In this document: positions 16,828 to 18,827 of the stretch, piece after piece
Numbering within the stretch: the first letter of the stretch is position 1
How the letters are laid out: the number at the start of each line of letters is the position of its first letter
Assembly: GCF_001921215.1 (NCBI RefSeq)
Contig: NZ_MSIF01000043.1
Location: 1-41,689, forward strand
Origin: Actinophytocola xinjiangensis
GTDB lineage: Bacteria > Actinomycetota > Actinomycetes > Mycobacteriales > Pseudonocardiaceae
Length of the DNA stretch: 41,689 nt
Direction of reading: 5' to 3'
Notes under the pieces: model-generated
What the model saw: only the letters and a program-made list of their open reading frames with translations
Databases searched by the model: none
What the model was told of the DNA's origin: nothing
Program-made: the position numbers and the translations under genes

Positions 16828-17133
16828 CTAGTCACTGGCGGCCGCCCGCCACAGCTGGTCGGCCCGCCGCGCGACCTCGGCGGCCTCGTCGGCGGCGTCC
16901 GCGCCGCCCCCGGACGCGGCCAGCGACTCCGCGCGAGCCAGCAGCTCGTCGGCCTGCGGCAGGTCGGCCGGGCAGGCGTCGCGGCTGACCGTGGCCGAGT
17001 CGATGGCGGCCCGCGCGCTCGACCAGGCGACCCGCACGCGCAGGTCACGGGCCCGGCGGCGGGGAACGTAGGCGGTGGCGAACCCGGCCGCGACCAGCAG
17101 CAACGCGCCGGCCAGCCAGATCACCCAGGACAC
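16828..17133 (-). CDS. Small single-helix membrane protein (operon gene 1)
   Basis: A 101-residue protein. A membrane helix spans about residues 3-21 (WVIWLAGALLLVAAGFATAYV). It is followed by RRRAR, placing the remaining 75 residues inside by the positive-inside rule. That part is alpha-helical and rich in Ala/Arg/Asp (ADLPQADELLARAESLAASG, EAAEVARRADQLW). It resembles in style the cytoplasmic tails of the two downstream genes. The GTG at 17131-17133 is preferred because GGAG lies five bases before it; an in-frame start at 17184 exists but gives a non-hydrophobic leader. Function unknown. Confidence 0.65.
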   Translation of the reverse strand: MSWVIWLAGALLLVAAGFATAYVPRRRARDLRVRVAWSSARAAIDSATVSRDACPADLPQADELLARAESLAASGGGADAADEAAEVARRADQLWRAAASD

Positions 17134-17201
17134 GGGGGCTCCGTCAACACCCGGACACTCTGACAAACCGCCCCGAGTCGTCACTCCACCGGGTCACTGA
17201 T

Positions 17202-17232
17202 TTGACCTTCTCGCTACGTCAACTTCTACCGT
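17202..17232 (+). promoter_or_regulatory. MerR-type promoter with 19-bp spacer upstream of the TipA-like gene
   Basis: -35 TTGACC (17202-17207) and -10 TACCGT (17227-17232) are separated by 19 bp, the overlong spacer that MerR proteins correct by distorting DNA. TTGAC (17202-17206) and GTCAA (17218-17222) form an inverted repeat across the -35 and spacer. The -10 ends six bases before the ATG, so the mRNA should start at or next to the start codon. Autoregulation by the encoded protein is the obvious inference. Confidence 0.75.
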
Positions 17233-17238
17233 GGAGTC

Positions 17239-18015
17239 ATGGCTTGGTCGATCGCCCAGGTGGCGCGGATGTCGAAGGTGACGTCGCGCACCCTGCGGCA
17301 CTACGACGAGATCGGGCTGCTCGCGCCGGCGCGGGTGGGCACCAACGGCTACCGGTACTACGAGCGCGAACAGCTGCTGACCCTGCAACAGATCCTGGTC
17401 ATGCGGGAGCTGGGGCTCGGTCTGGACGCGATCACCCAGATCGTGCACCAGGGCCGGGACCAGGTGGAGGTGCTGCGACTGCACCGTTCGTGGCTGGAGG
17501 CCGAGCGTGACCGGTTCCAGCGGCTGGCCGACACGGTCTCGCGCACGATCGCCGAGCTGGAGGAGGAGACGGAAGGAGGTGAGAACGTGAACGCGACATC
17601 GATGGACCACTGGTTCGACGGCTTCGACGACCCCGAACGCCAGCAGGCCCTCCAACAGGAGGCCCGCGAGCGCTGGGGTGCCGAGACCGTCGACGCGGCC
17701 AACGCCAAGGTCACCGGCGGCGCCAAGCAGTGGTGGGCCGAGAACGGCCAGCAGTGGGCCGAGCAGGTCACCGCGCTGGTGGCGCTGATCGACGCCGGCC
17801 ACGACCCGGCCGACGAGCAGGTGCAGGCCGTGATCGAGGGCCACCACCGCTGGCTGTCCAGGATGTGGACGCCCAACCGGGAGTCCTACACGGGTCTGGG
17901 CGACGTCTACGCCGACGACCCGAGGTTCCGGGAGAACTTCGACCGGACCGACCCGCGCCTGGCCGAGTTCCTGCGGGCGGCCATGGCCGAGTTCGCCAGG
18001 ACGAGGCTGGCCTAG
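17239..18015 (+). CDS. MerR-family regulator with TipAS ligand-binding domain (TipAL-like)
   Basis: A 258-residue protein. The N-terminal MerR winged helix (1-70) is SIAQVARMSKVTSRTLRHYD through YYEREQLL. A dimerising coiled coil (75-112) follows. The TipAS domain starts at about 117 (MDHWFDGFDDPERQQALQQE, then ERWG, HHRWLSRM and YTGLGDVYADDPRFRENFD). In Streptomyces, TipAL activates its own promoter on binding thiopeptides and TipAS is made from an internal start. Here the same layout is visible: a perfect Shine-Dalgarno sequence precedes an in-frame GTG at 17587. The TipAS domain has no cysteine, whereas TipA traps thiopeptides covalently through cysteine, so a non-covalent or different ligand is likely. 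A multidrug-sensing role is inferred. Confidence 0.9.
   Translation: MAWSIAQVARMSKVTSRTLRHYDEIGLLAPARVGTNGYRYYEREQLLTLQQILVMRELGLGLDAITQIVHQGRDQVEVLRLHRSWLEAERDRFQRLADTVSRTIAELEEETEGGENVNATSMDHWFDGFDDPERQQALQQEARERWGAETVDAANAKVTGGAKQWWAENGQQWAEQVTALVALIDAGHDPADEQVQAVIEGHHRWLSRMWTPNRESYTGLGDVYADDPRFRENFDRTDPRLAEFLRAAMAEFARTRLA
17573..17582 (+). promoter_or_regulatory. Internal near-perfect Shine-Dalgarno sequence inside the TipA-like gene
   Basis: AAGGAGGTGA matches the complement of the 16S rRNA tail almost completely, which is unusual inside a coding region. An in-frame GTG follows at 17587-17589, seven bases after AAGGAGG. Confidence 0.8.
17587..18015 (+). CDS. Internally initiated TipAS-like ligand-binding protein (same frame as the TipA-like gene)
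   Basis: Initiation at the GTG at codon 117 would give a 142-residue protein consisting of the ligand-binding domain alone. Streptomyces lividans TipAS is 144 residues and made the same way. It would lack the MerR DNA-binding domain and act as an abundant ligand sink that dampens induction. The evidence is the ribosome site at 17573-17582, the in-frame start and the exact domain boundary. Expression itself is inferred. Confidence 0.7.
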   Translation: MNATSMDHWFDGFDDPERQQALQQEARERWGAETVDAANAKVTGGAKQWWAENGQQWAEQVTALVALIDAGHDPADEQVQAVIEGHHRWLSRMWTPNRESYTGLGDVYADDPRFRENFDRTDPRLAEFLRAAMAEFARTRLA

Positions 18016-18017
18016 CC

Positions 18018-18059
18018 GGTCACCGGACGGGAGCGCCGCGGATCTCCCGGCCGGTGACC
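18018..18059 (+). terminator. Strong stem-loop after the TipA-like gene
   Basis: GGTCACCGG (18018-18026) pairs with CCGGTGACC (18051-18059). CGGGAG (18028-18033) pairs with CTCCCG (18044-18049), leaving one mismatch and a 10-nt loop. It starts three bases after the stop. There is no U-tract, as is common for actinobacterial terminators. Confidence 0.65.
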
Positions 18060-18068
18060 CGGCAGGCC

Positions 18069-18074
18069 TATCCT
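18069..18074 (+). promoter_or_regulatory. Candidate -10 box (TATCCT) of the isomerase-like gene
   Basis: TATCCT ends six bases before the GTG at 18081, and no ribosome site is present. A leaderless transcript is likely. Confidence 0.45.
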
Positions 18075-18080
18075 CCACAC

Positions 18081-18827
18081 GTGGAGTACGGCGAGTACCT
18101 CGACCAGATCGAGCACCAGGCGTCGGCGCTGCGTGCCGCCGCCGTGGCCGCCGGGCCGGACGTGCCGGTGCCGCCCTGTCCGGAGTGGACCGTACACCGG
18201 CTGGTGCGCCACATCGCCAAGGTGCACAACTGGGTGGGCAAGGCGCTGGTGACCGACCCTTCGGCCCCCGAGCCGCACCCGGACCGTCCGCCGGAGTCCT
18301 GGCCGGACCTGCTGTCCTGGTGGGACGACCAGGTCGGCGCGCTGCTCGGGGCGCTGCGCGCGCGGGACCCGGCCGAGCCGGCGTGGGTGTTCGCGGTCGC
18401 GGCCGAGCCCGCCGCCGCGTTCTGGGCGCGCCGCCAGGCCCACGAGACGGCCGTGCACCGGCTCGACGCCGAGCACGCCGCCGCCCGGTCCGACCGCGCG
18501 GACTCGGTGCCCGCGCTGGTCTTCGACCCCCGGTTCGCCGCCGACGGGATCGACGAGCTGCTGGTGTTGATGACGCCCCGGCGGTACCGGCGGGAGACGG
18601 TCACGGTCGAGGGCACGGTGCTGTTCCACGCCGCCGACGCCGGCCGGGCCTGGCTGGTGACCCTGCGCCCCGGTCAGCCGCCGCTGATCGGCCCGGCGAC
18701 CGAGGTCGACTCCGACGCGTCGGTGGTGGGCACCGCCGACGCCGTGTACCGGGCGGCCTGGCACCGCCCGTCGCACGCGGTCGTGTCCGGCGACCGCACC
18801 CTGGTCGACGCGCTGCGCACGCCATGA
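18081..18827 (+). CDS. Maleylpyruvate isomerase family mycothiol-dependent enzyme
   Basis: A 248-residue protein of the TIGR03083 / MDMPI type. The N-terminal DinB-like four-helix domain has CPEWTVHRLVRHIAKVHNWVG (about 33-53) and AHETAVHRLD (about 120-129). His44 or His49 with Glu122 and His126 are the likely metal ligands. A C-terminal SCP2-like beta domain follows (VTVEGTVLFHAADAGRAWLVTL). Characterised relatives use mycothiol to isomerise maleylpyruvate; most members have unknown substrates. The link to mycothiol fits the presence of mshA. It overlaps purU by 4 bp (ATGA). Confidence 0.88.
   Translation: MEYGEYLDQIEHQASALRAAAVAAGPDVPVPPCPEWTVHRLVRHIAKVHNWVGKALVTDPSAPEPHPDRPPESWPDLLSWWDDQVGALLGALRARDPAEPAWVFAVAAEPAAAFWARRQAHETAVHRLDAEHAAARSDRADSVPALVFDPRFAADGIDELLVLMTPRRYRRETVTVEGTVLFHAADAGRAWLVTLRPGQPPLIGPATEVDSDASVVGTADAVYRAAWHRPSHAVVSGDRTLVDALRTP

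Follow-up and report, generated by a model that had tools for sequence, protein, structure and literature searches.

Architecture of the MerR–TipAS gene

The window, that is, the whole 41,689-nucleotide stretch of DNA analysed here, from the soil actinobacterium Actinophytocola xinjiangensis, carries a gene whose features are collected in Table 1. The full-length MerR–TipAS protein expected from the original prediction is encoded at this locus: Pfam detects PF13411 (MerR_1; 2.6e-18), PF00376 (MerR; 1.6e-14) and PF07739 (TipAS; 2.1e-30), all above the cut-off, and the two domains that characterize the TipA class are thus found in a single chain. The product predicted to start within the linker corresponds to the ligand domain, as had been claimed, since it contains the entire TipAS match and, searched alone, resembles Streptomyces lividans TipAS (~4e-13) with a similarity that begins at its residue 9. 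A search of the ligand domain against a phage collection returned no match at 1e-5. The gene is flanked upstream by a DUF6403 gene on the other strand and downstream by a mycothiol-dependent isomerase-like gene, and neither neighbour hints at the ligand.

Table 1. Features of the MerR–TipAS gene and its promoter in the window
Feature	Coordinates	Strand	Remarks
-35 hexamer TTGACC	17202..17207	+	read in the sequence; pattern common to relatives
19-bp spacer with MerR-type operator	17208..17226	+	conserved CGTCAAC on the right; the left half is degenerate in the window copy
-10 hexamer TACCGT	17227..17232	+	ends 6 nt before ATG 17239
TipAL-like full-length regulator	17239..18015	+	MerR, linker and TipAS, 258 aa; ATG at 17239, stop ends at 18015
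MerR DNA-binding domain	17248..17448	+	PF13411, residues 4-70
Internal ribosome site AAGGAGGTGA	17573..17582	+	maintained in relatives through codons that these genes seldom use elsewhere
Internal in-frame start codon GTG, codon 117	17587..17589	+	start-column comparison
Predicted TipAS-like short product	17587..18015	+	142 aa, ligand domain without the DNA-binding domain; from sequence only
TipAS antibiotic-recognition domain	17653..17991	+	PF07739, residues 139-251

Promoter, operator and first start codon

The anticipated MerR promoter is present, and the gene is preceded by its own MerR-type promoter with the 19-bp spacer of the TipA class. We compared this region with 52 relatives retrieved by a scan of genome contigs, yielding 53 genes with that of the window. 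The pattern (TTGA.., a 19-bp spacer containing CG(T/G)CAA, and TA...T) recurs in 52 of the 53 genes, the window included, and is absent from one Streptomyces gene. The spacer dyad is weak in the window copy, where 7 of 13 symmetric positions pair, and clearer in relatives; no inverted repeat of at least 8 nt was found in 17180-17250. In a comparison over window 17202-17223, the left operator half reads TTCTCGC versus TTGACGT or TTGACGC in the same-genus genes L003-L007, and a Nonomuraea gene (L047) has a left half altered much as in the window. A sigma-70 scan with 16-18 nt spacers over 16900-18200 returned no promoter and no terminator.

As only 6 nt separate the -10 hexamer and the ATG at 17239, the long form is probably translated from a leaderless start. 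Family-wide, such a start is the exception: the distance between the -10 hexamer and the start codon amounts to 6-7 nt in 4 of 52 genes (the window gene and three Actinophytocola genes) and to 24-58 nt in the other 48. Since Actinophytocola L003 and L005 are among the latter, this feature varies even within the genus.

The operator–promoter occurs at one site of the host genome, before its own gene, when up to 3 mismatches are allowed. With at most 1 mismatch, the operator is single in five of six same-genus genomes, including the host, and the sixth (G005) holds two sites, one of them with a mismatch. MerR regulators commonly control exporters, and both products could exist with the long form mainly controlling other genes, for instance a drug pump, and the short form damping the response. 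The second, operator-like site of G005 (1 mismatch), located some 195 bp before the gene of an ABC transporter ATPase, is in line with such wider targets, but it lacks a -10 hexamer at the right distance and the operator is single in the host and in most of the genus, and we regard this reading as unlikely. A wider regulon was rejected: the full operator–promoter pattern, with up to 3 mismatches allowed, gave the gene's own site alone in the host, and the extra G005 site, retrieved with a shorter pattern, is unmatched by a different, longer pattern. That site (L232:1501-1522) precedes the ATPase gene and then a frame that we take to be permease-like; it may mark a pump as a target in this one genome, or may serve a different MerR regulator.

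Internal ribosome site and start codon

The ribosome site AAGGAGGTGA and the in-frame GTG at codon 117, on which the proposal of a second product rested, are both found in the linker region. The window has a single copy of AAGGAGGTGA, and 100 dinucleotide shuffles produced none. When followed by a start codon 3-7 nt downstream, it occurs six times in the 9.5 Mb host genome, and a control with the reversed pattern gave 0. Further genes with the same internal site had been suggested as a subject for a search, and by our reading of the frames two of these six occurrences lie within a coding frame, that of the window gene and that of a second locus, L235. There (G000:C13:143454-143471, in the host genome), AAGGAGGTGA is followed by an in-frame GTG within another open frame, whose protein reads ...VKEVTIVLGELVANAFQHA... 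and presumably resembles an anti-sigma-factor-type ATPase; L235 may hold another internal start, or its amino acids may produce the motif by coincidence.

The pairing energy with the 16S tail is -21.2 kcal/mol at the internal start versus -2.8 kcal/mol at the first start, and the internal site is stronger than the first-start site in 47 of 53 genes when the best candidate start near the column is considered. Around the internal start, the RNA shows no more structure than shuffled sequences (z +1.29), although its predicted fold involves part of the ribosome site and of the start codon in base pairs.

Codon choice at the internal start

To the 53-gene set we added a wider survey: a TipAS match was found in 123 of 396 genomes of the phylum and a match in 91 of 120 genomes of the family, and the whole protein was matched in all 6 genomes sampled from the genus. 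From the phylum and family searches, 30 loci and 40 regions each were taken, mainly among the stronger matches, and the survey therefore leans to good matches. Among 225 records, two that duplicate the window were set aside and all 223 others were family matches; 192 were full length, and 181 were kept once exact duplicates had been removed. Among the 31 records below full length are the host's second TipAS gene (twice), matches to the MerR part only and L037, which has a 168-aa frame and is counted in the 53-gene codon set.

The column of the internal start reads GTG in 28, ATG in 18, AAG in 6 and AAC in 1 of the 53 aligned genes (among them L037, with its shortened frame) and never GTC, compared with 362 GTC, 339 GTG, 8 GTA and 8 GTT among valine codons elsewhere in the same genes. 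The codons that form the ribosome site are biased as well: Gly113 is encoded by GGA in 34 of 41 genes with glycine at this position versus 41 of 840 glycines elsewhere, and Glu112 by GAA in 37 of 40 genes with glutamate versus 129 of 1052 elsewhere. In the 181-gene alignment, valine in the window's column is encoded by GTG in 40 genes, by GTA in 2 and by GTC in none, against 970 GTG and 963 GTC elsewhere; where GTA stands, it is followed directly by ATG, a candidate start. The seven genes with neither GTG nor ATG in the column (one from Streptomyces, five from Nonomuraea and one from Microbispora) carry ATG three codons downstream of it, where the ribosome-site matches amount to just 3-4 nt. 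In Kribbella, the ribosome site is found in a shifted register across different amino acids.

An in-frame linker start behind a ribosome-site match of at least 6 nt is present in 75 of the 181 genes versus 13.2 expected from within-gene synonymous shuffles, counts that are not independent as the surveyed genes are related. For Glu-Gly-Gly-like linkers the number is 60 of 86 versus 8.1 expected (71 of 86 versus 37.9 for matches of at least 5 nt), and for other linkers it is 14 of 50 versus 4.9 (24 of 50 versus 17.7). Met-Glu-Ala linkers give 1 of 45 versus 0.1 (44 of 45 versus 32.6 at 5 nt or more), a group in which the test has little power because these amino acids almost force GGAGG. With one gene per cluster and an approximate null, we counted 37 of 109 versus 5.9 expected at 80% identity, 16 of 48 versus 4.2 at 60% and 11 of 25 versus 2.6 at 50%, and none of 200,000 simulations attained the observed count at any of the three levels.

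The site is also restricted in its position and frame. Along the whole gene, 79 sites fall within the 10 codons before the TipAS motif and every other 5-codon bin holds 0-3. A ribosome site is present in the linker of 90 genes. In 76 of them an in-frame ATG or GTG follows at a distance of 3-12 nt (with an out-of-frame start as well in three), 14 have no start in this range, and none has an out-of-frame start alone.

Were the internal site a functionless chance product of codon usage, Glu-Gly-Gly codons could account for its look, and synonymous shuffles of the window gene indeed reach a match of at least 5 nt in 37% of cases. The 10-nt match is reached in just 2 of 500 such shuffles, however, and the family-wide excess adds to the case against chance, which we consider extremely improbable; we reject a chance or amino-acid-dictated site on the basis of the shuffles together with the codon counts. 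The original prediction had named dictation of the site by conserved amino acids as one outcome that would overturn it, and this comparison, once run, gave the opposite answer both in the 181-gene excess and in a start column that is never GTC. The location of the site at a domain boundary is what would be expected if it acted as a pause between the DNA-binding and ligand domains, aiding their separate folding and involving no initiation. A pause does not need a start codon, yet the column is GTG or ATG in 46 of 53 genes, and an in-frame start follows in 76 of 90 genes with none having an out-of-frame start alone, so that pausing is disfavoured by the start-codon and frame restriction and appears very unlikely to us. 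Because synonymous codon choice, the GTG/ATG column, the frame restriction and the position peak agree, we conclude that the internal site is not dictated by the amino acids. The ribosome site and in-frame start before the ligand domain that are expected of a two-product switch are therefore present and, as judged from codon comparison, under selection.

Family tree and distribution of the internal site

A FastTree tree of the 181 rows was built leaving out the linker columns; its midpoint root serves for drawing only and some long branches are flagged. The window gene falls into a group of 8 rows (support 99), the other seven being genes from Actinophytocola and Actinokineospora; its nearest named relatives are from Actinophytocola, with ~80% protein identity. 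A supported branch sets 103 rows, the window among them, apart from the other 78, to which the tipA-like linkers belong. Internal sites of at least 6 nt number 65 of 103 versus 10.2 expected on the window's side and 10 of 78 versus 3.0 on the other. A cysteine at the first TipA cysteine column is found in 63 of 181 genes, all 63 on the 78-row side and none of the 103 on the window's side, and 44 of the 181 surveyed genes encode proteins without any cysteine, as does the window gene. Since the Met-Glu-Ala amino acids nearly dictate a short ribosome site, the branch of the window is better suited for testing the internal start.

Some members do not have the site. The second TipAS gene of the host (L002), a 266-aa MerR–TipAS paralogue, has one ATG in its linker and no ribosome site before it, and provides a natural single-product comparison within the same cell. 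A well-supported branch of seven rows with DRMIDAHERG-like linkers (L193, L194, L198, L201, L205, L217 and L218) has no internal ribosome site, which suggests that it lost, or never had, the short product.

Nine genes on named plasmids were picked from 35 matches and gave raw counts, to which the shuffle comparison does not extend: in seven of the nine, including four from Bacillota and one from an alphaproteobacterium, a purine-rich site and a start immediately precede the domain. For the non-actinobacterial members of this set the count is five of seven, and the two sphingomonads have no start behind a purine-rich site before the domain. We lean, by a small margin, toward the view that a sensor and a sink made from one gene are the default of MerR–TipAS genes across phyla. 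Our data also suggest that annotation with one protein per gene would overlook a second protein in many of these genes, and the conservation pattern suggests that a free ligand-binding domain may be useful in itself rather than as a thiopeptide peculiarity.

Proposed model of a two-product regulatory unit

The domains, the promoter geometry, the one genomic operator–promoter site and an internal start under selection can be read from the DNA, and we think it likely that they compose a self-contained TipA-class drug-response unit in which one message would yield both the 258-aa regulator and the 142-aa ligand domain. The MerR-type promoter with its over-long 19-bp spacer would transcribe this single message, from which the regulator would be translated starting at 17239, probably without a leader, and the ligand domain starting at 17587 behind a near-perfect ribosome site. 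A small, presumably drug-like molecule would bind the C-terminal domain of the long form, which would then activate its own promoter. The additional message would give mostly the short form, as the internal ribosome site is much stronger than the first-start site, and the short form would soak up the molecule without competing for DNA. We infer the ligand-triggered self-activation and the ligand sequestration by the short form from work on the TipA class, as described in PMC7762955.

A combined reading would join the cross-phyla default to a split of the two starts in this lineage into a leaderless one and one led by a ribosome site: the ratio of sensor to sink could shift when an antibiotic disturbs translation initiation, providing a second, translational sensing of ribosome inhibitors. 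We rate this combination as highly improbable.

Comparison with known systems

SkgA (PDB 7cla; 1.1e-39) and the MerR-like regulator of PDB 3qao (4.9e-26), which we take to be Lmo0526, are the closest solved full-length relatives of the 258-aa protein by sequence search; TipAN (3.7e-14) and TipAS (7.3e-13) are also among the solved relatives. Like the window protein, SkgA has no cysteine within the aligned stretch. A MerR–TipAS protein of Mycobacterium marinum is linked to vitamin B12 uptake in PMC11237697, which bears on ligand breadth and not on the internal start.

AlbAL/AlbAS of Klebsiella oxytoca resembles the window system in being a MerR-like drug-binding protein for which a long and a shorter form are described. 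According to PMC10189885, the AlbA operator is palindromic, has a 19-bp spacer, which is also that of the window promoter, and is found nowhere else in its genome. AlbAS differs in that it comprises two tandem TipAS-like domains. The two AlbA products are assumed by analogy with TipA in PMC6078987, and AlbAS is termed a natural isoform in PMC12531866.

The two-product switch is already known, being documented for tipA and proposed for albA (PMC7762955, PMC6078987 and PMC10189885). Two in-frame products from one gene are described for tipA in PMC7762955, PMC6078987 and PMC2893106, the first of which gives TipAS as the predominant form in S. lividans. We found no family-wide survey of the internal start in the open-licence literature, and an earlier one may exist.

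The window protein shares with S. lividans TipAL/TipAS the MerR N-terminus and the TipAS C-terminus, and family members with tipA-like linkers show GGAGG followed by an ATG immediately ahead of the TipAS domain. The window gene is nonetheless separated from tipA by a supported branch in the family tree, its protein has ~30% identity to that of the tipA-like gene L090, and its internal ribosome site is embedded in Glu-Gly-Gly rather than Met-Glu-Ala codons. The two cysteine columns of TipA are occupied by P212 and G219; as the window protein contains no cysteine, covalent capture of a thiopeptide through a ligand-domain cysteine, as expected of tipA proper, is impossible. Of the thiopeptide-contact residues F123, F126, Y131, V135 and W139 listed in PMC7762955, two are kept in the window protein, as F129 (for F123) and W146 (for W139), and P132, L138 and A142 replace the other three. 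With the cysteine and three of five contacts absent, we do not claim membership of tipA proper: judged by its residues, this is a remote relative of tipA that lacks cysteine, and its ligand need not be a thiopeptide. The original prediction of a TipAL/TipAS-like switch is supported by an internal start that is selected in codon choice, frame and position, and what our analysis adds to the known systems is evolutionary evidence, from codon choice, of a maintained second start in a branch without the cysteine chemistry of tipA.
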